Source of the DNA: Candidatus Acidiferrales bacterium
GTDB taxonomy: Bacteria; Acidobacteriota; Terriglobia; Acidiferrales; UBA7541
DNA: 45,776 bases
Direction: 5' to 3'
NCBI GenBank assembly: GCA_030037355.1
Contig: JASHRL010000301.1
Location: 1-45,776, forward strand
Shown: positions 18,209 to 44,847 of the stretch, in pieces
Numbering within the stretch: the stretch's first letter is position 1
Layout of the letters: every line of letters starts with the position of its first letter
The notes under the pieces: generated by a model
Seen by the model: only the letters and a program-made list of their open reading frames with translations
The model's database searches: none
What the model was told of the DNA's origin: nothing
Position numbers and translations under genes: made by a program

Positions 18209-18225
18209 TGGTAGCGATACCGGGA
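18209..18225 (+). repeat. left attachment-site core (17-bp tRNA 3' fragment)
   Basis: TGGTAGCGATACCGGGA here is identical to 44773-44789, the 3' end of tRNA-Glu on the complementary strand including the CCA. Identity stops at both sides of the 17 bases. This is the expected footprint of integration into the tRNA 3' end, with the full tRNA restored at the right end. Confidence 0.9.
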
Positions 18226-18526: not shown

Positions 18527-20707
18527 CTACGCACCACACGGCTTGAGAAACACTTCAAATGCCTCGCGCAACATTTCACGGTATCGTCGCCGGTCATATC
18601 CATGCCATCCTTCCCACCGCGAGTACGCACGCACACGGTCGTTGGGAATCCGCGCCTCTGAGTCCGTAATGATGTACTCGACCGTCTGTCCGGGGCGGAG
18701 TCGGACGCCGCTGCCGTAAAGCTGCTGCGCGGCAATCGCCGTATGGCAGGCTTTCCGATAATCGCGCACGGGGCGCGTGAGGCGCTTGCTAACAATCAAG
18801 TCCTCGACGGCAATCGCGCCATTTTCAAGGTTCTCTTCGTATTTCCGTTCCACGGCACGGGCCTCTTCAACCTTGCGGCAATAGCTGTCGTAGTCGTGAG
18901 CCTCCGCGAGAATGTCCAAGACCTGCCCCTGCATACGTGCAATCAACGGGGGCGTGTCATGCCTACGCAGTTCGAGGCCACGAACTTTCAAGCTGCCACC
19001 GTTGCTCACAGCAAAGAAGCGATTGGGAACTGGAACATCCTCAAACTGCCGCGAGGGAAGGAAAACGATGTAGCGATAAACGGCTTCGATTGCCAAAGGA
19101 AGCCGCGTCTGCCGCTCAATCTCCCGCGCCAGTTGCTCGTAGTCTTCACGGCTGGCTTGGTCTTTCCAGACATAGAGCGAGTCTACGAGCGCGTGGAGCA
19201 ACTCGAATCCACGGGTTTCGGCGATTTCTTTCGCCACGAGCAGCGTCTCCCGCGCCACGGCATTGATGGCTTCGTGAGCCTCGATTTTGCCGAAGCGGGC
19301 GTTCTTGTAGCCTGTGTACCCAAAGCAGCAAACGAGCAGCCACTTCAAGGCATCGCGCTGCAATTTGTATCGCTGCGCTGTCGATGAAGACACTTCGGGC
19401 TGGCGCTGCTTCAATTCGGTTCTCTTCGAAATGAGCCGCTCCACCACGCGGCTCGTGATGCCGCGCCGTTGCTGGCAAATGCGGTAGCCGAGTTCGGGGA
19501 CGCGGGGCGCGTCCGGGCAGCAGGGGCAATTGACCGTCTCGGGTGAAACATTGAAGCGGGCCATGATGGACGGATACTCGCTGACAAAATCGAGTTCGGC
19601 CACGTTCGTGAAAAAGCCTAGTTTCGGCGTGAATACCAACCCGCCCCTATCGGCGGAGAGAAGCGCGTCGGGCGGCTTTGGGTCTTCCGGTTCCGCCTTT
19701 TGCGATGGAATGAGAACGCCGTCACGGTAAGCGAGTTCCATTTGCATGTACGAGATGCCCGTTCCGGTCGTTGTCCTTGCGCAGTACTGCACCGGCAGCT
19801 TAGTGACGCGTGCCAGTTCCCACAATCCCGCAAGGTCGCACTTGTTGGCGATGAAGGAGTTGCGGGTGTCCACATGCAGGCGGCCAAACAAAGTTGTCGC
19901 ACTATTCTTGAACAAGATGCGGCCATAGCTCATGAAACTTCGTGCTTTGCTCTGCTGCACTTGTGCATCGGGGTCGCGATTGAACTGCAACGCAACGCCA
20001 AGCTGTGCAGCCTGCTGGCGCAAACGCGGCAAGATAGCGGCATCGCCCCAATCCGTCAGGATAAGGTCGGGGTCATGCCATTTGAGGAGGCGCTCAAGAG
20101 CCACGGCAGCAGGCTCACCGGATTCATCCAACTCATATTCCCGTTCGCCCACTTCGACTTCGAGCGCAGTCTGCCGTCCGTGCACCGGGTCTATGCGCGG
20201 CAATCCGCCTAGCCGCACGTGCATGATTTCGAGCGGCGGGAGTTCGTAGTCGAAAGACCATTCACTGTCCCGGCATTCGATGTGTTGCACCTGCCCATCT
20301 TCATCCGCGTCAACTTCGACGAGAGCGAGTGGGAAGACGTTCTTCTGCCAGCAGTAGAGAGAGGCGAGCATGAGGTCGCTGTTATACAGCCGCAGTGCAG
20401 AGTCGAATCTTTGCACCCATCGTGTCCAAGAAGAGTATTGCGTGGGGTGCTGCACGGAAATTTCCAAGACCTCACGCGATTCTCTTTCCCAAATGTCCGT
20501 GCGTTCCGTCATGCGGCACACGAGCGCCGAGTGTTTCGGCTCAAGCGCACCATGAAGCCGCCGCAAACTATCGGGCGAACCGGAAACGTAGAAGGCAGGC
20601 GTGAAGCTGTCAATCAGCCGGTGGCGGTTCTGGTTCACTTCCATCAGCCACAATTTCATCCCCTGTGGAGATGGGTAGAGGTCGAGAATCCATCCCTGTA
20701 GTCGCAT
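18527..20707 (-). CDS. B-family DNA polymerase of the PolB2 (Dpo2-like) type
   Basis: This 726-aa protein has B-family polymerase architecture: an N-terminal domain, a degraded exonuclease-like region (about 125-330), then palm and fingers. Motif A is DFVSEYPS (Asp373). Motif B is KWLLVCCFGYTGY (Lys455), replacing the usual KxxxNSxYG. Motif C reads HALVDSLYV: Asp509 is kept but the first Asp of DTD is Leu507. Cysteines 394, 396, 397 and 411 look like a zinc site. An altered motif C is the mark of the archaeal PolB2 clade, first called inactivated (Rogozin et al. 2008) and later linked to damage tolerance in Sulfolobus. The start at 20707 gives GWILDLYPSPQG, typical of the family. It ends a DUF72-RecA-like-small gene-PolB cassette. 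Confidence 0.85.
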   Translation of the reverse strand: MRLQGWILDLYPSPQGMKLWLMEVNQNRHRLIDSFTPAFYVSGSPDSLRRLHGALEPKHSALVCRMTERTDIWERESREVLEISVQHPTQYSSWTRWVQRFDSALRLYNSDLMLASLYCWQKNVFPLALVEVDADEDGQVQHIECRDSEWSFDYELPPLEIMHVRLGGLPRIDPVHGRQTALEVEVGEREYELDESGEPAAVALERLLKWHDPDLILTDWGDAAILPRLRQQAAQLGVALQFNRDPDAQVQQSKARSFMSYGRILFKNSATTLFGRLHVDTRNSFIANKCDLAGLWELARVTKLPVQYCARTTTGTGISYMQMELAYRDGVLIPSQKAEPEDPKPPDALLSADRGGLVFTPKLGFFTNVAELDFVSEYPSIMARFNVSPETVNCPCCPDAPRVPELGYRICQQRRGITSRVVERLISKRTELKQRQPEVSSSTAQRYKLQRDALKWLLVCCFGYTGYKNARFGKIEAHEAINAVARETLLVAKEIAETRGFELLHALVDSLYVWKDQASREDYEQLAREIERQTRLPLAIEAVYRYIVFLPSRQFEDVPVPNRFFAVSNGGSLKVRGLELRRHDTPPLIARMQGQVLDILAEAHDYDSYCRKVEEARAVERKYEENLENGAIAVEDLIVSKRLTRPVRDYRKACHTAIAAQQLYGSGVRLRPGQTVEYIITDSEARIPNDRVRAYSRWEGWHGYDRRRYREMLREAFEVFLKPCGA

Positions 20708-20963
20708 GGCGGTTCTCCGCAATATGCAATGCGCATTCGAGCGCATCGAGGCGCTTTTCTTGGTTAAGGACGATGGACAGCAGAACGGACTCCATCGGGT
20801 TGTCGCTGGCTTGATACGTGGCGGCCTGCGTGTAGCAACGGGCATGACGAAACAAACGGTCGAAGCATTCTTGGTCTTCTCGCCGCAATGCACGGCGGAA
20901 TTTCGACCACCTTGCGGCGGTCTCTTCGAGAAGCTGACGGAATGTGGGAACCGTGCGGCCCAT
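20610..20963 (-). CDS. 117-aa protein of the PolB2 cassette, function unknown
   Basis: This small protein starts MGRTVPTFRQLLEETAARW and is predicted helical over most of its length. Conserved-looking features are WSKFRRALRREDQ, FDRLFRHARCYTQAA and NPMESVLLSIVLNQEKRLD, a helical pattern that could form a bundle or partner interface; the tail is acidic and proline-rich. The start at 20963 lies 11 bases past the RecA-like stop; an in-frame extension to 21059 would overlap that gene. Its end overlaps the polymerase start by about 98 bases. I take it as the third partner of the polymerase and RecA-like protein; no catalytic motif is visible. Confidence 0.72.
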   Translation of the reverse strand: MGRTVPTFRQLLEETAARWSKFRRALRREDQECFDRLFRHARCYTQAATYQASDNPMESVLLSIVLNQEKRLDALECALHIAENRHATTGMDSRPLPISTGDEIVADGSEPEPPPAD

Positions 20964-20974
20964 GATGTTCTCGG

Positions 20975-21604
20975 TTACGGCAATGCGCGTGGTTTTGACG
21001 CCGTACTTTTCTCGCTGTTTAGGTAGAGTTTGCCTTCTTCGTTCTCCGCGAACTTCCACACATGATTCGCCTGCGCTTTGAGTTGCTGGAAGAACTTACG
21101 ACGCTCCGTCTGGAAGAAATCCGCACCCGAAAATACGGCCACAACTAAGCGAAGCGGCTCAAGCACACGCAGGGCTGCAAGTGCTTGGCGAAAGGAAGCG
21201 GCTGCCTCGACCTCACGCACGTCTTCATCGAAATACAAATCCGGGAGGGCCGTGACGATGAGCGCCTCGGCAGGAAAGTCCCGCAGCAAGCGCGGGGCAC
21301 GCACGAGCAGTTCCGTCAACTGAAAGCATGTGAACGCTCGTGCGACGCGCAATTGCTGGTGAAAAGGGAGCGATTTAGTTCGACGGGCAAAGCGGGCAAT
21401 CAGTAAAGGGTCAAATCGGTTCGCGCCGTCCAGACAGAGAATCCTCTTGCCCTGTCTGACCAATCCGGGAAGAAAATAATGGAACAGTCGCGGTGTCTCT
21501 GGGTGCCCGTGAAATACGCTGAGACCCAATTCTGACAACGCCCAGAGCTTCGGCGGCGACGCCGAAGATACGGCCAATGCATCCGTGCTTGAAGGGACGG
21601 CCAT
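20975..21604 (-). CDS. RecA/RadA-like protein lacking a P-loop
   Basis: This 209-aa protein looks like a degenerate RecA-fold ATPase. At the P-loop position after the first strand it has GHPETPRLFHYFLPG (from about residue 33) with no GxxxxGK[ST]. The next strand (KRILCLDGANRFDP), the Walker B-like strand ALIVTALPDLYF, and the late strand LRLVVAVFSGADF keep the alternating RecA pattern. Loss of nucleotide binding recalls ImuA, the RecA-like partner of the bacterial ImuB/DnaE2 mutasome, and the RadA-like gene reported near archaeal PolB2. I chose ATG 21604; a TTG at 21631 is possible. No strong ribosome site is visible for either. Confidence 0.65.
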   Translation of the reverse strand: MAVPSSTDALAVSSASPPKLWALSELGLSVFHGHPETPRLFHYFLPGLVRQGKRILCLDGANRFDPLLIARFARRTKSLPFHQQLRVARAFTCFQLTELLVRAPRLLRDFPAEALIVTALPDLYFDEDVREVEAAASFRQALAALRVLEPLRLVVAVFSGADFFQTERRKFFQQLKAQANHVWKFAENEEGKLYLNSEKSTASKPRALP

Positions 21605-21675
21605 GACAGTGGGTGCGGATAAGCGGGTCAATGGTAGGCGAACAAAAGGCGAATGTCAAATCAGGGGTGAAGGCC

Positions 21676-22593
21676 TTATCTCGCCTTCTTCGGTGGAGGA
21701 AATAAGGACGGCTCGCGCAGCGGTTGGGTGGAGATTTCTTCCAGTTCTGGGTAGCGTGCCAGCAATGGCTCAGGGATTTTCTGTTTTTGACGAGTGAGCC
21801 GATAAAGAATCTGAAACGCATTCACCAGAGCCTTCGCTTCGGGGTGATTGTTCAGGATGACGAAGATTGTGGAGGCATCTTCTTCCAATCTTCGAATCCG
21901 CTCCAGCCAAGGCTCAAGCTCTTCGCTTGAGTACAAATAGTTGTACCGCTCGAACGACAGTTTCTCAGGTTCATCCGCAAACCATGTGTCGTAGCGCCGC
22001 CCGTGCAGGCGAACGTAGCCGATTGGCCCAGTTGTTTTTTCCGAAGGTTTGAGCGAGCGCCCGATGATGGGCTGGTCGATGTTGCAGAAGCTGACACCCC
22101 GCTCTGCAATCAGTTCATGGAATTTCGGCTCATTCCACGTGGCATGGCGTACCTCCACGACTAGCGGATAATCGGCGAATCTCTGCATGAGCTTCTTCAA
22201 ATAAGCGAGGTTCTCCTTTGTGTGGTGAAAGGAGAACGGGAATTGAAGCAAAACAGCGCCCAGTTTTCCGGCTTCGCGGAGTAGGTCGAACCCGACACGG
22301 ACAGCACGCTCGTCCTCCGCGTTGGAACTTAGTTCATGCGTGAATTTCTGCCAGAGCTTCGCCGTGAAAAGGAATCGTGGGTTGGCAGACACTTGCTCCA
22401 GCCATTGCTTGCAATTCTCCGGTCGAAGTGGCTGGTAGAAAGACGTGTTGATTTCAATCGTGTCGAAATATCCGGCGAGGTACGCCGCTTCGTGAAATTC
22501 AGGCGGCTTTCTCTTAGGGTAAGCGATGCCGTTCCAATCCGCATACGACCACCCAGCAGGCCCGATGCGAATCTTGGTCACTCCCATGAGCAT
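21676..22593 (-). CDS. DUF72 (YecE-like) protein
   Basis: This 305-aa protein is a DUF72 TIM-barrel family member. It starts with IRIGPAGWSYADWNG, followed by DTIEINTSFYQPLRP (about residues 48-62), FLFTAKLWQKFTHE, GAVLLQFPFSFHHTKENL, and YVRLHGRRYDTWF (about 199). The biochemical role of DUF72 is not established, but the family is often found beside DNA-repair genes. It is first in the leftward run with the RecA-like protein, the 117-aa protein and PolB. A GGGGAT ribosome site precedes the ATG at 22593. Only 17 bp separate it from a rightward small ORF. Confidence 0.88.
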   Translation of the reverse strand: MLMGVTKIRIGPAGWSYADWNGIAYPKRKPPEFHEAAYLAGYFDTIEINTSFYQPLRPENCKQWLEQVSANPRFLFTAKLWQKFTHELSSNAEDERAVRVGFDLLREAGKLGAVLLQFPFSFHHTKENLAYLKKLMQRFADYPLVVEVRHATWNEPKFHELIAERGVSFCNIDQPIIGRSLKPSEKTTGPIGYVRLHGRRYDTWFADEPEKLSFERYNYLYSSEELEPWLERIRRLEEDASTIFVILNNHPEAKALVNAFQILYRLTRQKQKIPEPLLARYPELEEISTQPLREPSLFPPPKKAR

Positions 22594-31093: not shown

Positions 31094-34000
31094 ATGGCCG
31101 GTTATCCCGAGGTTGGAGAGCCAATCCAGAACTCGCCGTTCGAGGAGCCGACTCGCTATTGGTACATCCGCGAGGGCGAGCAGCCGCAGCTTGTCGAGGG
31201 GCGGCGGCGACCTGCGATTGTGTTCGCTCCTCGCGAACAGAAAAAGCCGTGGCAAACGGACGAGCGGCTGTTGCGGCCTTCGAAGCAGTACCCAACAGGA
31301 TTCGAACTCGCGTTGGTCAACCTGATTCGAGAGCGCGTAGCCGAATGGCAAAAGCAGGGCTATCCCGGCACGACACGAACAACTCTCGAACTCATGCAAT
31401 GGTGGAGGCGCGAGGGGCGCGAAAAGCGGCTCTTCTTCGCTCAGCTTGAGGCCGCAACCTCCGTAATTTTTCTGAAGGAGGCGCGAGCCGATTTCCTGCA
31501 AGGCGTTTCCATCCCGCGAGACGAGCCAAGCGACGACCGCAAGGAAAAAGACGGATACACGGGATTCGAGCGGTACGCCTGCAAGATGGCGACCGGCTCC
31601 GGCAAAACGACGGTGATGGGGATGCTGGCGGCGTGGAGCATCCTGAACAAGGTGAACAACCGAAGCGATGGACGGTTTTCAGACACAGTGCTGGTTGTCT
31701 GTCCGAACGTGACCATCCGGCAGCGGCTCGCCGAACTCGACCCGTTGCTCGAAGAGGCTAGCATTTACCGGACGCGAGACCTCGTCCCGGCGCACTTGAT
31801 GCCGCTGTTGAGCCAAGGGAAGGTCATCGTTACGAACTGGCACGTGTTCGAGCCGCAGGGAACGCAGACGGACGGCGTTAGCTCGAAGGTGGTGAAGGCA
31901 GGCAAGGAAGTGCGGGTCAAAGAGACCATCAACATCGGCTCGAAGACGACTACCGCCCACGGAAAGCGTTACCTCAGCCTGAAGGATTACGAATTGCAGG
32001 TTGCGAACGGAATGCTGACCGTATTGCCAGACGGAGAAGCACGAGACAAAGATGGCAGCCTGAAACGAGTGAAGGTCGAGTCCACGCGATACGTCGAGAG
32101 CGACACGGCCCTCATCAATCGAGTAATTGGGCGTGAGGTTGGCGGGAAGCAGAATCTTCTTGTGCTGAACGACGAGGCGCACCACGCCTACCGCATCAAG
32201 CGCGAGGAGCCTGACGAGGAAGAAGAAGACGAATTCGGCGAGCAGGAAGAGGCGGACGAATTCTTTCAAGAGGCGACCGTCTGGATTGACGGACTGGATA
32301 AGCTGCATAAGCAGCGAGGCATCAATTTTTGCGTTGACCTGTCGGCGACTCCATATTTCCTCGGTAGAGTCGGGCAAGAGTCGAATAAGCCCTTTCCGTG
32401 GGTCGTGAGCGACTTCGGTCTGATTGATGCCATCGAGTCAGGGCTGGTGAAGATTCCTCAGTTGGCCGTCCGCGACACGACCGGAGAAGAAATTCCCGGC
32501 TACCTGAATATCTGGCAGTGGATTCTGGAAAAGAAGCTCACTCCAGCGGAACGTGGCGGCAAGAAAGGAAGCCCGAAGCCATCTTGAAGTACGCCCACCA
32601 TCCCATTGCGATGCTAGGCGGACTTTGGGAGAAGGAAACTGTTGATTGGGCAAAAAACGAAGCTGACCCACGACCGCCTGTCTTCATTCTCGTCTGCAAG
32701 AACACGAAGATTGCGAGGGCAATTTACGAATGGCTCGCCGAGGACAAAGCACCGACTGGGATTCCATCTGCGCGTGTCGCGGGCTTCCTCAACCAGAACG
32801 GTCAGGTGAACACGATTCGGGTGGACACGAAGGTGATACACGAGACGGACGTGGAGGGCGCTAAGGGAGACGAGGTTCGGTGGATGCGGTTCACGCTGGA
32901 CACCGTGGGGAAGACTGGTTGGCCCGGCGACCGGCAGGGACGACCGCTCTATCCAGAGGGGTTCGAAGAACTGGCAAAAAAATTGGAGCGGCCACTCCAT
33001 CCTCCGGGACGGGACGTGCGCTGCATCGTGAGCGTCGGGATGCTCACTGAAGGATGGGACTGCAACACGGTCACGCACATCATTGGGCTGCGCCCGTTCA
33101 TGTCACAGCTTCTGTGCGAGCAGGTCGTGGGGCGAGGACTCCGACGAGTGAGCTACGAACTCGGCAAGAACGGGCACTTCACTGAGGAGGTTGCCAAGGT
33201 GTTCGGTGTGCCGTTCGAGGTCATCCCGTTCAAGGCGAATCCGCAGGGCGCTGCGCCGCCGCGAGTGAAGAAATATCACGTCCATGCGATTCCCGAAAAG
33301 GCGGAATACGAAATCCAATTCCCGAGAGTCGAGGGCTACACGCAAGGGATTCGGAACCACGTGACGGTGGATTGGGCGAACGTGCCGCGCATGGTGTTGC
33401 AGCCCGACTTGATTCCTCCCAAGGTGGACATGAAAGGGCTGAGCATCTCGGACACCGGGCGATTGAGCTTGGCGGGGCCGAATCGCTTGGACGAAGTCAC
33501 GCTGAAAGAGTATCGGGCACGGATGAGATTGCAGGAGCTTGTATTCGATTTGGCGAAGGGCCTGACCAAGGAATATGTTTCGCAGCCGCAGTGCCACGTG
33601 CCCGCCCACGTTTTGTTTCCGCAACTGGTCAGAATCATCCAGAAGTACATGGCAGAGAAAGTGGAAGTCCGCCCTCCTGCCGACCTCAAGGATTTGGGTC
33701 TTGCGCCGTATTACCCTTGGCTGGTCGAAATCTTGACCGAAAATATCCGGCCCGACACAGCAGGCGGTGAGGCACCAGAGATTCCCCGTTACGAATCGAG
33801 CCGAGGCCCCGGCTCCACTGCCGAAGTGGATTTCTGGACGAGCCGGGAGCCACGGGAAGTCGTGAAATGCCACCTGAACTATGTCGTTCCTGACACTCAG
33901 AAGTGGGAGCAGGCCGCTGCTTACTACATTGATTCGCACGATGCCGTGGATGCGTTCGTGAAAAACTCGGGACTCGGATTCGCAATCCCGTACCTGCACA

Positions 34001-34236
34001 ACGGACAGATGCACGACTACATTCCCGATTTCATAATCCGGCTCAAGAGCGACCCGCAGGTTCACCTGATACTAGAAACCAAAGGTTATGACGAGCGCGA
34101 AGAGGTTAAGGCTGCGGCGGCGAAGCGCTGGGTGGATGCCGTGAACTCGGATGGCTCTTATGGAAAGTGGCGCTACGAACTAGTGAAGAAGACCACGGAT
34201 GTTCCGAAGAAAATCAGTGAGGTTTCTGGGGCGTAG
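31094..34236 (+). pseudogene. type III-like restriction helicase-nuclease (Res), frameshifted
   Basis: The Res partner reads in two frames. The first, 31094-32587 (497 aa), has Walker A ATGSGKTT (about residue 166), DEAH box NDEAHHAYR (about 360) and the SAT motif LSATPYFLGR (about 416). The second, ending at 34236, continues with KYAHHPIAMLGGLWE, helicase motif VI QVVGRGLRRV and a C-terminal PD-(D/E)XK nuclease (DYIPDFIIRL then LILETKGYD). The break lies in AAGAAAGGAAGCCCG (32562-32576). One missing base would restore GGKKGxPEAILKYAHHP. No slippery heptamer is apparent, so a mutation or a sequencing error is more likely than programmed frameshifting. It resembles the family named BPTD_3080 in some databases (recalled, not checked). 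Confidence 0.85.
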
Positions 34237-34268: not shown

Positions 34269-34736
34269 GTGAAGATTGCGTTGAAATGGGAAAAGCCGCT
34301 GCGTTTGAAAGACGGTTCACGTTTGAATCAAATCTATCTTTGTTCCGGTCTCGACGATTTACCGAAAAAGCCCGGCGTCTACGTATTCGCTCGAAAGTTT
34401 GGAAATAATATCGCCCCTCTCTACGTGGGTCAGGCTTCCAAGCTGAGAGGGCGAATTGAAGGGCAATTCAACAATCTGCGACTTATGATGGGAATTAAGA
34501 ATGCCCCGGCAGGCAAGCGCATTCTGCTGGCCGCACGTCTTTACTTGAAGCGAGGACAGCAAATGAGTAAGGTGCTCGACATTGTCGAGTCTGCCTTGAT
34601 TAAGAATGCTCTCGCGCAGGGGCACGACTTGCTGAACCAACAGGGCACGAAGACCAAGGTGCACGTCATCAGGTCTGAGGGGAACAGTTCGTCGCGGCAG
34701 GTTGCGCCCCTTACGATGCTTGCGGAGCGGAAATAG
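34269..34736 (+). CDS. GIY-YIG nuclease-like protein
   Basis: This 155-aa protein has a GIY-YIG-type core: GVYVFA (Gly36-Tyr38), LYVGQASKLRGRI (Tyr52, Gly54, Arg60/62) and a later glutamate in DIVESALIKN (about residue 107). That order of catalytic residues is complete, so a metal-dependent single-strand nicking activity is plausible. It follows the Res gene by 32 bp, with the start preceded by a GGAGGAGC-type ribosome site. Its stop overlaps the convergent TM0106 gene by 26 bases. It may be an accessory nuclease of the restriction block. Confidence 0.8.
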   Translation: MKIALKWEKPLRLKDGSRLNQIYLCSGLDDLPKKPGVYVFARKFGNNIAPLYVGQASKLRGRIEGQFNNLRLMMGIKNAPAGKRILLAARLYLKRGQQMSKVLDIVESALIKNALAQGHDLLNQQGTKTKVHVIRSEGNSSSRQVAPLTMLAERK

Positions 34737-36207
34737 TCTCACCAGTCTTGCTCTGCAACCACCGAAACACTGCCCACATCGCGGAGAGGTCTTCTTCGTT
34801 ATAAACGAGGATTTCGTTCATCAATTCCTTTCGCTTTGCCTCGTCTGCGGTTTCAGTGGCTTCAATGAATTTCGCCATCGCCCATTGACCATTGCCCTCG
34901 GTCAGCTTGCGCTCGTAGCCAACGTGTTGCTCGATGACCTTGAGACTGAAACTCGGGACAGGCAGGATAACGGATTCTCTCGTAATTGGAAGGAGGTCAA
35001 GCAAGTTCGCCATCACGCGGCACGCGACACCGTCAGGGTCACCATACCGCTGAATGTATTTCGCCAGATACGTTTTCTCGTAACTCGCCCAATGGACGAA
35101 CGGCACATCGCCGCAAGTCTCGAAGACTTTTTTCGCGTTTGCCAAGAACGCGAGCCAACCGTCGCGGTCGCCATCGGAGCCGAAGCCCGAAACTGCTGGC
35201 ATGAACTCGCTTGGGTTCTCGCCAAACACCTGAACGCCCCACAGATATATTCTGTCGAGTTCGTCGAGATGCGGCGGCATCCCTTCAAGGTCAAACATCG
35301 CGTAGTTCGGGAGCGCAGGAATTGCGGGCGTGCACAGGATTCTCTCGGTTCTTTGCTCCATCGCCTCGGCGAATTGGAGTATGCGCTCGGCCTTCTTGCC
35401 GACTCGCTGCTGCCTGTTTCCAACGGGCCGCTTCAATTCGCTTAGGCTCGCGAAATCGAAGTTGTGCAAGAGTTCCCGTCTCGTGCGAATACCGATGCTG
35501 TTGAGCGTTCGGGCAAGGCTCTGGTCAACATCTGGGACGAGGGCGACATCGCCGTTCGCTTCGGCCTGATTCCAGCATCGCTCGTTGTAACCGCAAGGGC
35601 CGCATTTAGTCCACCCGACCGGCTCGTATGCTTCCTCCTGTGTCCGTTTGATTGCAGCAATTCGTTCCAGCGCGACTAATGCCGATGCGCCGTCGTGGGC
35701 AACAGGCACGATTTCCTCCATCCCGTTAAATACTTGAAGGATTTTCGGAGCGACGCCAACGCTCTGCTCAAACAGCCAGCCGTAAAGCTGGACTTGCAAC
35801 AAAATCTCGGGGTGATTTTCCTCGTCGATTCGCCGTGCCATCTTGGCATCGCGGACGATGTAACCGTCGCTGTCGTGAATCAGGAAATCGGGATAGCCGA
35901 CAATTTCAGCTTCGATGTCACCGAATCGTTGCATCACTCGAAACGCAGGCTGATAAATGACAGGAACTCTAGTCGCAATAGCTTCGGATGTTCGTCGGAT
36001 GCGCTCTTCTTCAGCTACTCCGCTCAAATCGAGGCACTCACCCAATGTCGCGAGATGCTGCTGTTCATGCCGGTTGCCAAGCCTGCGCAGGACAAGCTCA
36101 TACTCGGTCTCCTCGCGTTCCAGTGCGTCATGATGCCGGAGCCAGACGCGCAGGTCGCAGAGGCTTGGTCGAAATCGCGTGATGAAATCAGAAGCGATGA
36201 GGCGCAT
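34711..36207 (-). CDS. TM0106-type RecB-like and RNase H-like double nuclease
   Basis: This 498-aa protein joins two nuclease parts. The N-terminal Cas4/RecB-like part has Asp107 in GYPDFLI and Asp120-Ala-Lys122 in VRDAKMA, with cysteines 17, 202, 205 and 211 (KCGPCGYNERCW) fit for a 4Fe-4S cluster. A helix-hairpin-helix-like LNSIGIRTRREL follows (about 234). The C-terminal part is a DEDD-type RNase H-like exonuclease, with AMFDLEG (Asp305, Glu307), FVHWASYEKTY and VYNEEDLSAM. Family relatives are called TM0106-like RecB nucleases. It converges on the GIY-YIG gene. Confidence 0.85.
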   Translation of the reverse strand: MRLIASDFITRFRPSLCDLRVWLRHHDALEREETEYELVLRRLGNRHEQQHLATLGECLDLSGVAEEERIRRTSEAIATRVPVIYQPAFRVMQRFGDIEAEIVGYPDFLIHDSDGYIVRDAKMARRIDEENHPEILLQVQLYGWLFEQSVGVAPKILQVFNGMEEIVPVAHDGASALVALERIAAIKRTQEEAYEPVGWTKCGPCGYNERCWNQAEANGDVALVPDVDQSLARTLNSIGIRTRRELLHNFDFASLSELKRPVGNRQQRVGKKAERILQFAEAMEQRTERILCTPAIPALPNYAMFDLEGMPPHLDELDRIYLWGVQVFGENPSEFMPAVSGFGSDGDRDGWLAFLANAKKVFETCGDVPFVHWASYEKTYLAKYIQRYGDPDGVACRVMANLLDLLPITRESVILPVPSFSLKVIEQHVGYERKLTEGNGQWAMAKFIEATETADEAKRKELMNEILVYNEEDLSAMWAVFRWLQSKTGETISAPQAS

Positions 36208-40014: not shown

Positions 40015-41304
40015 TCATGCTGCCTCCAGTTGCTTCCGCTTCTTGTCGCGCTTTCGACGCCACATGCGAGCAAATTCAGTCTGACAGCTCTCGCGCTCGC
40101 GACGCCAAATCTCGATGGCGGACATTTCAGCCATTCCATACTCGTCTCTTACCTTGATGAGGCCCGACTCAAAGGGTTTCCGCTGTTCGATGGTCAAGTC
40201 AACCCACCACCACATCGCGTCCTCTCGGTCTTGCTCATCGTCGGCCTGCTGTGGGGTGAGCTTCGACTTTCGAGCGAACTCGGCGCGGCGCTCCTCGACC
40301 TGCCGATGGCTGCGACCCGCGAAGGTTTCAAACTTGCAGCCCGGATTCCAGTAGGCCAAGAACTCGGGGTTGTGGTTGGCGAACGTCATGTACGCCGTCA
40401 GGACGTTGGTGCAGGACTCACCTTTGCCCTCCCCATTCAGAATAGTCGCTATGTGTGTATAGGTCTGCAAGGTCTCGATTAAGTCTCGTGGGCAGCCGTG
40501 GGCGAGAAGGGTCTCCACGACTTCCGACTTGAGCACGACCTTGCCGCCGTGGCGTGGTCGCGGGCACGCGGGAACGGACGGTGCAGGGGTGGCACTCGCC
40601 ATCTGTACCCCGTCCGACAGGACGGGGGCTGTTGCTGTTGCCTTTGGTTTTCCTTCCTTCATTGAGGAAGAAAAGGAAAAAACCGGGTTTTGACTTGAAG
40701 CACTTGTGTTCTCTTCTCCTGTAATGAAGGAAGGTACCCCACTACTGTGTATGGACTTCTTGTCGAGTGGCTTCTCGACTTCTTGTCGAGTGGCCTCTGG
40801 ACTTCTTGTCGATAAGCCTTTGGACTTCTTGTCGAGTGGCTGCTCAGGCGATGTCTTTGCGGCATCCAGATTAACCAGCGACTTCTGGCGTGATTCCTCG
40901 CTCTTGCGGGCACCACGGGACGGCAGCTTGGCGCGGATAAATTCGTCGTCCTCGTCCTTCGCCATCGCTCGGGCCTTGATGGCGGCAAGCTGTTCCTTCG
41001 TGATTGTGTACCAGCACCGCAGGTAGCCACGGTCATCGTGGAATCTCTTCACCTTCAGCCAGCCATCAGCCTCGTACATCTGCGTCAGCTTGCAGACGGT
41101 GTCCACAGAGATGCCGTGCCATGCGGCGAGCGTCTCCTGACGCGAGATACACCACCCGAGAGTGTCCTCCGAGTACTTTTGCGCCTTGACCCATTCAGGG
41201 TCATCCAAAATCAGGGAGGCAATGCGCTCTAACAGGGACTTCGCGACGCCCTTGTATTCGTAGAGATTCGAATTACGGACTGCGGCTGCGTGTTCGCTAC
41301 TCAT
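40015..41304 (-). CDS. replication initiator-like protein with in-gene iterons
   Basis: This 429-aa protein resembles the lambda O type of phage and plasmid initiators in layout. An N-terminal winged-helix DNA-binding domain (about 30-100, including SRQETLAAWHGISVDTVCKL) is followed by a charged linker, then a helical C-terminal domain (DLIETLQTYTHIATIL, WWWVDLTIEQRKPFESGL) that may contact the helicase. In the linker the DNA holds four 23-bp direct repeats and an inverted repeat (40652-40845). The ATG at 41304 has a GGGAGGT ribosome site; a 38-codon frame overlaps it and suggests coupling. No catalytic replication motif is visible, so initiator function is inferred. Confidence 0.7.
   Translation of the reverse strand: MSSEHAAAVRNSNLYEYKGVAKSLLERIASLILDDPEWVKAQKYSEDTLGWCISRQETLAAWHGISVDTVCKLTQMYEADGWLKVKRFHDDRGYLRCWYTITKEQLAAIKARAMAKDEDDEFIRAKLPSRGARKSEESRQKSLVNLDAAKTSPEQPLDKKSKGLSTRSPEATRQEVEKPLDKKSIHSSGVPSFITGEENTSASSQNPVFSFSSSMKEGKPKATATAPVLSDGVQMASATPAPSVPACPRPRHGGKVVLKSEVVETLLAHGCPRDLIETLQTYTHIATILNGEGKGESCTNVLTAYMTFANHNPEFLAYWNPGCKFETFAGRSHRQVEERRAEFARKSKLTPQQADDEQDREDAMWWWVDLTIEQRKPFESGLIKVRDEYGMAEMSAIEIWRRERESCQTEFARMWRRKRDKKRKQLEAA
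40652..40734. repeat. 12-bp inverted repeat flanking a purine-rich tract
   Basis: CCTTCCTTCATT (40652-40663) and AATGAAGGAAGG (40723-40734) are perfect reverse complements, 59 bp apart. The spacer is purine-rich on the plus strand near 40664-40682 (GAGGAAGAAAAGGAAAAAA). Together with the adjacent iterons this resembles an origin with a DNA-unwinding tract. Confidence 0.65.
40754..40845. repeat. four 23-bp iterons inside the replication gene
   Basis: GACTTCTTGTCGAGTGGC-type units start at 40754, 40777, 40800 and 40823, an exact 23-bp period. The first 13 bases are invariant; the third unit differs at three positions in the next block. 23 is not a multiple of 3, so the repeat falls in all three frames and encodes different peptides (PLDKKS, TRQEV, STRS). 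Conservation is therefore at the DNA level, as expected for initiator-binding iterons. Confidence 0.85.
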
Positions 41305-41413
41305 CCGCGACCTCCCGCCACCGCGCGGTCGCGGCCATTTGATGAACACTGAACTGCGTGCCCCGTAGTGTTAAGCATTCGCGCTTGGCGACGTGACTGT
41401 GTTGGTATTTCAT
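41297..41413 (-). CDS. 38-aa ORF overlapping the replication gene start
   Basis: This short frame (MKYQHSHVAKRECLTLRGTQ...) has a GAAGGGACACGA ribosome site. It ends at 41297 so that its final codons GAT GAG TAG overlap the initiator start ATG AGT AGC. Such overlap is typical of translationally coupled leader or small regulatory proteins. Function is unknown. Confidence 0.4.
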   Translation of the reverse strand: MKYQHSHVAKRECLTLRGTQFSVHQMAATARWREVADE

Positions 41414-41887: not shown

Positions 41888-42047
41888 TTTGCGGGCGGGA
41901 GATACAGCACGAGTCAAAAGTGCGTATCGGACGAAGTAGGGGAATCGGGCGGGTTTTGCACTTCGGAGCACCTCTGATGCCCCGAAGGAACACCGGCTTG
42001 GTCAGTCCTTCTCCTCAACCTCCCATGTGTCGTAGAGTTCCCACTCG

Positions 42048-42785
42048 TCAGAGTTTACTCTTCCGTCCTTGAGGAAGCAGGGCCCGATAGCCATCATCCG
42101 CAAGAAGTACGGCCCACGCGGCAACGTGCTCGGCGACCGGAACGACGATGCTGTTCCCGAGACAGCGATGTCTGTCCATCCGGTTGGGAACCCCATCATC
42201 CACTCGGAATACTCCGGGCTTAGGCGTCTCTTGGAAATGGCGGTGCCACGACTTGCGCAGGCCTTCCGTTGATTTGACCCACCGCATGTATCTGACGATT
42301 TCGCCGTGGGTGTCGGCCACCAAGAGCACTCTTTTCCGCATGTGTGGAGCGCCAAAGGCGCACGCGGGGAGAACCGACCACCATGCATCATACCCGAGGG
42401 CGGCAAGGCCTTTGAGGACTTCATCCAGTCCTCGACTGAGAAGGTCGGCAGAGATTTCGGCACATACGACACGAGGCCGGATTTCCTTGATGACTCGGAG
42501 CATCTCGAAGAAGAGGCCGGACTCTTTCCCCCGGATGCCCGCTTTCCTTCCTGCCGGGCTGATGTCCGTACAAGGGAATCCGCCGCTGATGACATCAACA
42601 GGCCCGAGATTGTGCAGACCAACTTCCCGGATGTCCCGGAATCTTTTCGCTTTGGGGAACCGTTTTTTGAGGACTTTCGTCGCATAGTCGTCTATCTCCA
42701 CCTGCCATTTGGTCTGGATTCCGACCCTCTCGAACGCGAGGTCAAATGCCCCGATGCCTGAGAACAGGCTTCCGTGGGTGAGCAT
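42048..42785 (-). CDS. m5C DNA methyltransferase (Dcm-type)
   Basis: This 245-aa protein has the C5-cytosine methyltransferase motifs: GSLFSGIGAFDLAFE (motif I), the catalytic Pro-Cys in SGGFPCTDISPAG (Cys72, motif IV), AEISADLL (motif VI, Glu110), HMRKRVLLVA (motif VIII) and CLGNSIVVPVAEHVA (motif X). It is short, with a reduced target-recognition domain, as in phage-type enzymes. A matching endonuclease is not adjacent. It lies between the replication module and the xis gene on the same strand. Confidence 0.9.
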   Translation of the reverse strand: MLTHGSLFSGIGAFDLAFERVGIQTKWQVEIDDYATKVLKKRFPKAKRFRDIREVGLHNLGPVDVISGGFPCTDISPAGRKAGIRGKESGLFFEMLRVIKEIRPRVVCAEISADLLSRGLDEVLKGLAALGYDAWWSVLPACAFGAPHMRKRVLLVADTHGEIVRYMRWVKSTEGLRKSWHRHFQETPKPGVFRVDDGVPNRMDRHRCLGNSIVVPVAEHVAAWAVLLADDGYRALLPQGRKSKL

Positions 42786-43003: not shown

Positions 43004-43234
43004 TCACGCAGCCCACCGCCAATACTTGTCTTTTGCGACCCGCTCTTCGGTCTCTCTCGTGACCAACAGGTCTGTCTTGGGAATTAGGTTCTCGATGGCC
43101 GATGCGGGTACACGAACGAGGTAGCCGATGCGCACTACCGGCAGCCGACCACGTTTAATCCATCGGTAGATAGTGTTCGGGGTGACCCGCAGGATTGTAG
43201 CGACTTCTTGGACGGTCAAGAGTTTTGGAGCCAT
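43004..43234 (-). CDS. excisionase-like MerR/HTH_17 DNA-binding protein
   Basis: This 76-aa protein is an excisionase-family helix-turn-helix: LTVQEVATILRVTPNTIYRW (helix pair, residues 6-25), then IKRGRLPVVRIGYLVRVPAS (wing). The start at 43234 is preceded by GAAGAGGCAC. It lies between the m5C methyltransferase and the integrase gene on the same strand, the classic position of xis, which directs integrase toward excision. Confidence 0.88.
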   Translation of the reverse strand: MAPKLLTVQEVATILRVTPNTIYRWIKRGRLPVVRIGYLVRVPASAIENLIPKTDLLVTRETEERVAKDKYWRWAA

Positions 43235-43357
43235 GACGTGCCTCTTCGGTTTGAACCTGCCCGAAGCGACACGCACTAAGATTCGACGTGAACTTCTTCT
43301 TGGCTTTTCGAGTGACGTTACACGCGCTAGCTTTCGCCGCCTTCTGTTTCACTCGAC

Positions 43358-43451: not shown

Positions 43452-44615
43452 CTACGCTGCCGCGTCGTTCACCTGCTTGCGTAGCGTGGGGTCGGTTCGC
43501 TTGACCGCCCGCAAATAAGACATCGTTGTTTCAATGTCGGCGTGGCCGAGCAGCTTTTGAATCGTGTAGATGTCCACGCCAGCGCGGCAAAGAGTGGTCG
43601 CGTACAGGACTCTGAAACTGTGCATCGGCTTTGTTGGAACATCGACTCCGGCACGCTTCGCCACCCGCTTCACGATGCGGTCAATATGGATGTCCGGCTT
43701 TCCATCACTTCTTGCGAAAAGCAGAGAACCGCTCAGCGTCGCCACGTAAGCTGCTAGGGTCTCAATCAGGCGGTCATTAACCGGGACGGTTCGCTCCTCG
43801 CAATCCTTCGTCTGAAATCCCAATTCGGGCTTTGACCGAGTGCGGATTGTCTTCTCCGCAAAGTTGATGTCGGACTCTTGGGAGTGAACGATTTCGCCTT
43901 TTCGGAAGCCCGACCCTCGGGCGAGCAGGATAAGGACGCGCTCCTTGTCGGCCTTGCAGACCGCCAGCATTTTCCGAATGTCTTCGTCAGTCCAAGGCTC
44001 ATATTCATGATGCTCGGCCTTTGGCCAATCGGTCTGTTTGACGAGTCCGCGTTTCCCATACCGATTCAGGAATGTGACGACGTAGGCGAACAGATTCCGG
44101 GCAGTGTAGCCGCGGCCGTGCTCGGTTTCGCACGTCGCCTTGAAATTCATGACGCAGGGTCGTTCGATTTCGTCTACGTACTCGACCTTGCATCTTCGTT
44201 GAAACAGTTTGATTGCGTGGCTGTACGCATCATAGGTTTTCGGACGCTTGTGCTCTTGAATTTCGACAAGATATTCGTTGGCCGCATCACGAAGGCGGGT
44301 TCGTTGTCCGCCAACTTCTTTCGAGTCCTCGTTGAGAGGGATGCCGAAAGACTTGGCATTCAGGGCGGCTTCCATCCGGCGCATCGCGTTCAGCGCCTTT
44401 GGCGCGTCGCTTCCGGCAGGTTTCAGGATACGCTTGCCCTTGTCGGTGTAGCGGAGGTAATAGCCAAACGTCCGCTCGACCGCGACTTCCTCTCCTCCAA
44501 TGATGGCGACTCCCGATTTGATTTTCCCGTTTTTCGTGAATGCAGGACTCACGAAGCTCGACTTGCGGTCTCCAGCGTTGACCTTTACTCTGACTTGCAG
44601 CTTGACCTTGCTCAT
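43452..44615 (-). CDS. tyrosine recombinase / integrase
   Basis: This 387-aa protein is a phage-type tyrosine integrase. All catalytic residues are present: Arg238 in SGFRKGEI, Lys270 in GFQTKDCEE, His332-x-x-Arg335 in MHSFRVLYAT, His358 in LLGHADIET and nucleophile Tyr367 in MSYLRA. The N-terminal arm-binding and core-binding domains occupy about 1-200. It starts at 44615, about 160 bp from the tRNA-Glu 3' end, the position expected for an integrase using that tRNA. It recombines the 17-bp core. Confidence 0.95.
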   Translation of the reverse strand: MSKVKLQVRVKVNAGDRKSSFVSPAFTKNGKIKSGVAIIGGEEVAVERTFGYYLRYTDKGKRILKPAGSDAPKALNAMRRMEAALNAKSFGIPLNEDSKEVGGQRTRLRDAANEYLVEIQEHKRPKTYDAYSHAIKLFQRRCKVEYVDEIERPCVMNFKATCETEHGRGYTARNLFAYVVTFLNRYGKRGLVKQTDWPKAEHHEYEPWTDEDIRKMLAVCKADKERVLILLARGSGFRKGEIVHSQESDINFAEKTIRTRSKPELGFQTKDCEERTVPVNDRLIETLAAYVATLSGSLLFARSDGKPDIHIDRIVKRVAKRAGVDVPTKPMHSFRVLYATTLCRAGVDIYTIQKLLGHADIETTMSYLRAVKRTDPTLRKQVNDAAA

Positions 44616-44772: not shown

Positions 44773-44789
44773 TGGTAGCGATACCGGGA
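44773..44789 (+). repeat. right attachment-site core (within tRNA-Glu)
   Basis: TGGTAGCGATACCGGGA at the tRNA 3' end, identical to 18209-18225. The element is joined here so that the tRNA stays complete. Confidence 0.9.
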
Positions 44790-44847
44790 ATCGAACCCGG
44801 ATTTGAGCCTTGAGAGGGCTCCGTCCTAACCGTTAGACGATATCGCC
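44773..44847 (-). tRNA. tRNA-Glu (anticodon CTC)
   Basis: The minus strand folds as a tRNA: acceptor GGCGATA/TATCGCT, D arm GTCTAACGGTTAGGAC, anticodon stem GAGCC/GGCTC with loop CTCTCAA (anticodon CTC), T arm CCGGG-TTCGATT-CCCGG, and an encoded CCA end. It is the integration target: its 3' 17 bases are repeated at 18209. Because the tRNA is complete, the element replaced its own 3' end. Confidence 0.96.

Follow-up and report, generated by a model that had tools for sequence, protein, structure and literature searches.

A putative iteron origin inside a winged-helix initiator-like gene on an integrated element of a Candidatus Acidiferrales bacterium

Introduction

The gene at positions 40015-41304 (minus strand) of contig JASHRL010000301.1, from a Candidatus Acidiferrales bacterium (assembly GCA_030037355.1), contains in its interior an array of four identical 13-mers at a period of exactly 23 bp. 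The whole stretch of 45,776 nt that was analysed is hereafter referred to as the window. We read the array as the origin from which a 26.6-kb integrative element replicates, located within the gene for the element's own initiator; that protein would bind the repeats and start replication from them. To this reading we assign a probability of roughly 0.83. It is built on what was observed here, namely the repeats, their distribution over three reading frames, an AT-rich tract, a winged-helix fold, a mobile element and the same architecture in phage initiators.

Several replication systems provide a frame for comparison. The origin of phage lambda inside gene O is established (PMC6022878). SPP1 has its oriL, consisting of direct repeats and an AT-rich unwinding element, inside the gene of initiator gp38 (PMC6316719), and the oriL of P1, an AT-rich region, lies inside the gene of initiator RepL (PMC9948254). 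The winged-helix N-terminal domain (NTD) of pSK41 Rep binds four boxes that are located centrally in the rep gene, and the encoded linker is dispensable (PMC5703833). RepA of the PLE satellite is an initiator with a winged-helix NTD on an integrated island, where the origin is found in a non-coding region (PMC7145576). Here we describe the array, the protein that is encoded around it and the element that carries both, and compare the architecture with that of distant winged-helix initiators.

Results

An iteron array read in three frames

The 13-mer GACTTCTTGTCGA, which reads TCGACAAGAAGTC on the coding strand, occurs in four exact copies that start at 40754, 40777, 40800 and 40823. In the direction of the gene, on the minus strand, these are iteron 1 (40823-40835, frame 1), iteron 2 (40800-40812, frame 0), iteron 3 (40777-40789, frame 2) and iteron 4 (40754-40766, frame 1), which are translated as LDKKS, STRSP, TRQEV and LDKKS, respectively. 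The array is found ~470 nt into the gene, in the linker that follows the winged-helix N-terminus and precedes a helical C-terminus predicted at low confidence. None of the 13 core positions is variable, versus six of the ten positions in the three internal spacers (Fisher p=0.002), and the four units with an invariant 13-mer that had been described in the initial annotation were all recovered as perfect copies. Nearby pairs of 9-mer repeats within the initiator gene amount to 52, where the maxima obtained by shuffling were 14 (synonymous-codon, n=500) and 13 (codon-order, n=500). The count hence lies above every codon shuffle and the further claim, that the same DNA is read in all three frames, stands as well. 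Since the copies occur in all three frames, selection on the protein cannot maintain the array.

Outside the array, the 13-mer does not occur as an exact copy in the 3.75-Mb genome, and the exact iteron pair is absent from all viral and genome contigs searched. Other ori-like repeat families with more than two copies are lacking from 21000-45776, and the window has no DnaA box.

Disordered linkers tolerate insertions and 23-bp slippage arrays do occur, by which the array might be a recent tandem duplication in a tolerant linker that has no function. A duplication of this kind is at odds with an invariant core between spacers that do vary and with the use of all three frames, which excludes protein selection as the force that keeps the array, as well as with the fact that most analogous genes have an array at this place (60/70 versus 9/200, see below). 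We consider it very improbable.

In phage lambda each iteron forms an inverted repeat to which a dimer binds. Iteron 3, the sole copy that is extended to TCGAC-N5-GTCGA, together with some of the relatives, raised the idea that the window iteron is a dyad bound in the same way. This found no support in the present array, in which the arms measure 3 bp (p=0.50). By the same measure the lambda iteron itself reaches only p=0.19, and the dyad is significant (p<0.05) in a minority of the surveyed arrays (13/56).

The AT-rich tract and its inverted repeat

A tract at 40652-40734 (minus strand), framed by a 12-bp inverted repeat, is proposed as DNA unwinding element. Its GC content is 0.42 versus 0.57 for the gene, and at 42% GC it is modest in AT content. 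It belongs to the gene's AT-richest stretch, which directly adjoins the array on the C-terminal side: the 100 nt past the array correspond to the 2nd percentile of the gene in GC and the AT minimum is located about 60-80 nt past the array. The arms of the inverted repeat (40723-40734 and 40652-40663) are perfect and span 83 bp end to end. An equal or better repeat arose in 6 of 500 dinucleotide shuffles of the gene, hence its presence is moderately surprising, no more. The initial annotation had the perfect repeat right, yet its description of the enclosed tract as purine-rich applies to one half: between the arms, the first half of the coding strand is rich in purines and the second half in pyrimidines.

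The encoded protein

The open frame encodes 429 aa (hereafter P0001) from an ATG at 41304, with an alternative GTG at 41349, and is proposed to be a replication initiator gene. A winged-helix DNA-binding domain was assigned to residues ~15-104 (40993-41262, minus strand), based on an AlphaFold2 model and matches by Foldseek and VIA-align. With a 32-row alignment AlphaFold2 yields a winged helix with a mean pLDDT of 73.7, and about 81-88 over residues 50-110, by which the fold of the N-terminus is supported at the level of a model. The C-terminal region (40018-40542, minus strand), which is proposed to contact a helicase or primase, is predicted to be helical in a low-confidence single-sequence model, and the single-sequence model of the entire P0001 has a pLDDT of 47.6, too poor for use. 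Of the two domains that were claimed to border the linker, the winged helix is therefore borne out by a model with a well predicted core, and the helical C-terminus is seen only in the poor single-sequence model.

Foldseek and VIA-align returned many generic winged helices for the N-terminal model, including the RepA_N NTDs 4pql and 4pt7 and DnaD 2v79, which appear mixed among unrelated winged helices (E about 0.02, TM 0.33-0.47). Viral fold matches include several replication initiators, one of which is annotated as lambda GpO N-terminal domain. At the sequence level the N-terminus shows weak matches with PHROGs 428 (E=0.0024), 678 (O-like, 0.13), 270 (0.24) and 186 (DnaD-like loader, 0.17), and all annotated PHROG matches of P0001 concern replication initiation or helicase loading. 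The Pfam lambda O family (Phage_rep_O) gave no match at E up to 10, with phrog_678 at E=0.13, nor did the RepA_N profile (PF06970) match P0001, and the C-terminal region matches no family.

No homologues of P0001 were found in its own genome, in 60 relatives, in 396 genomes of the phylum or in 89 of the family, and none among viral contigs or genome contigs, nor in phages or plasmids. A single linker match of 66 residues at E=1e-3 was not credited as a homologue. No helicase-loader gene was recognised adjoining the initiator gene, and the downstream ORF at 39462-39860 matches no family.

A profile made from 17 winged-helix ORFs of the class (the genomic set described below) recognises P0001 with an E-value of 6e-8, versus 0.31 for the best shuffle. 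A viral-initiator profile yields 0.073 versus 0.091 for the best shuffle, and two LexA-like controls score higher. Since the latter profile fails on P0001, we restrict our claim to the broad winged-helix class. Given the kinds of domains and annotations with which it matches, we infer that P0001 is a replication initiator.

An integrative element at tRNA-Glu

The initiator gene is part of an element that has integrated at a tRNA-Glu(CTC) gene (44773-44847, minus strand), identified by ARAGORN and Rfam. A tyrosine integrase (43452-44615, minus strand; Phage_integrase E=1.1e-23, phrog_1 3.5e-43) adjoins this tRNA and is accompanied by an Xis/AlpA-like helix-turn-helix protein (43004-43237, minus strand; HTH_17 1.1e-14, phrog_66 excisionase 5.1e-11). 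The repeat search revealed a 17-bp att repeat, TGGTAGCGATACCGGGA, that is equal to the 3' end of the tRNA-Glu (44773-44789, minus strand) and recurs as a direct repeat of 17 bp, TGGTAGCGATACCGGGA, at the left end of the element (18209-18225, plus strand). In a sister species of the same genus (G004), the match with the right flank starts exactly at 44773 and the left flank is ~120 bp away, which means that the intervening 26.6 kb is absent there and the site is empty. An integrase adjoining a tRNA, direct att repeats and an empty site in a relative are thus all present.

A member of another genus of the family (G602) has a decayed relative of the island at the same tRNA-Glu (L150, 6068-11138), with the same far-end sequence. 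Its integrase is the closest relative of the element's integrase, and is broken into frames. An Xis remnant is present as well. This island has neither initiator nor iteron, as a result of which iteron conservation could not be tested there.

Among the other genes of the element are those of a type III restriction-modification locus and of further methylases, as well as genes for a resolvase and a family B polymerase. Virion and packaging families were not recognised among the island ORFs scanned, which form part of all its ORFs. Several other observations were made on the gene content. Two overlapping frames, 31094-32587 and 32518-34236, share the type III restriction subunit between them, suggesting a frameshift or a sequencing error. 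The C5-methylase ORF at 42048-42785 matches the N-terminal half of its family only, and the frame 42002-42685 that overlaps with it reads like the missing C-terminal part, hence this gene may be frameshifted. Beside the restriction-modification locus, the N-terminal half of 34711-36207 resembles Cas4-like PD-(D/E)XK nucleases. Just inside the far att, 18527-22593 encodes the family B DNA polymerase, a 218-aa protein and a DUF72 protein; homologues of the polymerase and the 218-aa protein (69% and 51% identity) occur in another genome (G571, L151), with DUF72 matches nearby and close to another integrase. The genome under study carries a second island on contig C52 (L157), with an integrase that is ~35% identical and an Xis-like protein, adjoining a tRNA-Ser.

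Centromeres and incompatibility iterons likewise typically have direct repeats about two helical turns apart. The array might then serve as a partition, incompatibility or copy-control site with centromere-like repeats and not as the origin itself, to which may be added that winged-helix centromere-binding proteins (4rs8, 5k5q) are among the fold matches. The island ORFs scanned include no ParA-like gene, however, and that the repeats are located within the linker of a replication-like protein and next to an AT tract fits initiators. Of the explanations other than an origin, we find this one the hardest to credit.

Survey of winged-helix initiators

Since P0001 is an orphan, conservation was tested as architecture in distant winged-helix initiators. 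For the genomic set, the PHROG 428 profile was used to collect winged-helix ORFs from genomes of the class (loci L007-L032). For the viral set, an alignment of six ORFs from the genomic set was scanned against viral contigs, which resulted in 80 loci (L058-L137) with 70 usable genes.

Most initiator-like ORFs of the genomic set have arrays of related 12-mers just past the winged helix, usually 21-24 bp apart, and the AT minimum of the gene lies 0-110 nt past the array in 13 of 17, versus 2.2 expected. Phage relatives of this set carry the annotation replication protein O or DNA replication initiation protein. The initial annotation had proposed conservation in homologous initiator genes as a check; run on distant analogues, this showed for the viral set that intragenic repeats exceed both shuffles in 60/70 genes versus 9/200 control ORFs of the same contigs, counts that overstate the sample somewhat, since several contigs are near-identical and the loci partly non-independent. 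Spacings are mostly 22 (61), 23 (32) or 21 (23) bp. The AT minimum is found past the array in 43/63 cases (11.3 expected), and within 110 nt upstream in a single one; the enrichment may in part reflect linker composition but is one-sided nonetheless. These data suggest that related phages as a rule have their origin inside the initiator gene.

Analysed by the same measures, lambda O shows spacings of 20/24/23 and an AT minimum at +35, and the window gene 23/23/23 and +62. The comparison with lambda O that the initial annotation had drawn was in this way supported: both have a winged helix, iterons in the linker and an AT tract on the C-terminal side.

The survey also bears on the possibility that the repeats are sites for the encoded winged-helix protein, or for another regulator, in intragenic transcription control and not in replication. 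The fold is common to repressors, with MarR, PadR and CRP among the fold matches of P0001, and iterons often double as sites of autoregulation. Nevertheless, LexA-, BlaI- and ArsR-like winged-helix matches from the same search (L024, L028, L029, L033, L034) have no such arrays, the sites of the window gene are distant from the gene start, and an AT minimum adjoins the array as it does in origins. We therefore regard transcription control as improbable.

Discussion

A replication origin inside its initiator's gene would work as follows. Upon excision of the element, the winged-helix domain of P0001 would bind the four iterons, which at ~2.2 turns apart would be exposed on nearly one face of the helix. 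The resulting nucleoprotein complex would put strain on the AT-rich tract that lies on the C-terminal side and thereby open it, after which the C-terminal region would bring in the replicative helicase or the primase of the host, for replication of the theta type. That host factors are recruited directly is the simplest guess, given that no helicase loader is recognised beside the gene. The linker encoded by the array is probably a tolerant spacer that has no sequence need of its own, as is the case for pSK41 Rep.

The layout resembles that of lambda O in that four iterons separate the N-terminal DNA-binding domain from the C-terminal one and that an AT-rich tract follows on the C-terminal side. 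Unlike in lambda, the iteron shows no significant dyad (p=0.50), no P-like helicase loader was recognised beside P0001 and no virion genes were found among the island ORFs scanned, while P0001 itself has no recognisable sequence relation with lambda O. With pSK41 Rep the gene shares centrally placed repeat boxes that follow a winged-helix NTD, but P0001 has no PF06970 match and its likeness to RepA_N is at the level of generic winged helices, with TM below 0.5. The layout may be said to work like that of lambda O or pSK41 Rep; both profile tests being negative, we do not claim membership of either family. SPP1 gp38 and P1 RepL equally have the origin inside the initiator gene, a likeness of layout with other phage types and hosts. 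The initiator of PLE, RepA, is encoded on an integrated island as well, but there the origin is non-coding whereas the window array is intragenic. In PHROG 428 initiators and their relatives, the winged helix, the 21-24-bp iterons and the AT minimum follow one another in the same order, although the linker and C-terminus of P0001 are unrelated to theirs by sequence and homology is demonstrable for the winged helix only.

A more far-reaching version is that the island replicates by itself and represents an undescribed lineage of non-viral or satellite elements, with type III restriction-modification as defence. It would amplify from the origin inside the gene of its orphan initiator, a winged-helix protein that would have arisen independently of lambda O and RepA_N, with convergence of the layout; out-of-frame iterons would then generally be what most phages and islands with winged-helix initiators use as their origin by default. 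We put this forward tentatively and, taken as a whole, think it rather doubtful.

A private origin makes sense for a gene that is carried by an integrated element, and on the tRNA-Glu island it predicts excision and multiplication, not passive inheritance. Initiator genes with internal iteron origins are already known and here one is found on an integrated island; the generality that emerges from the survey is the more useful part. In phages with winged-helix initiators the origin can usually be located as 21-23-bp repeats that come just past the DNA-binding domain and ahead of the AT-richest stretch of the gene, by which the origins of many uncultured phages and islands would be directly predictable from sequence.
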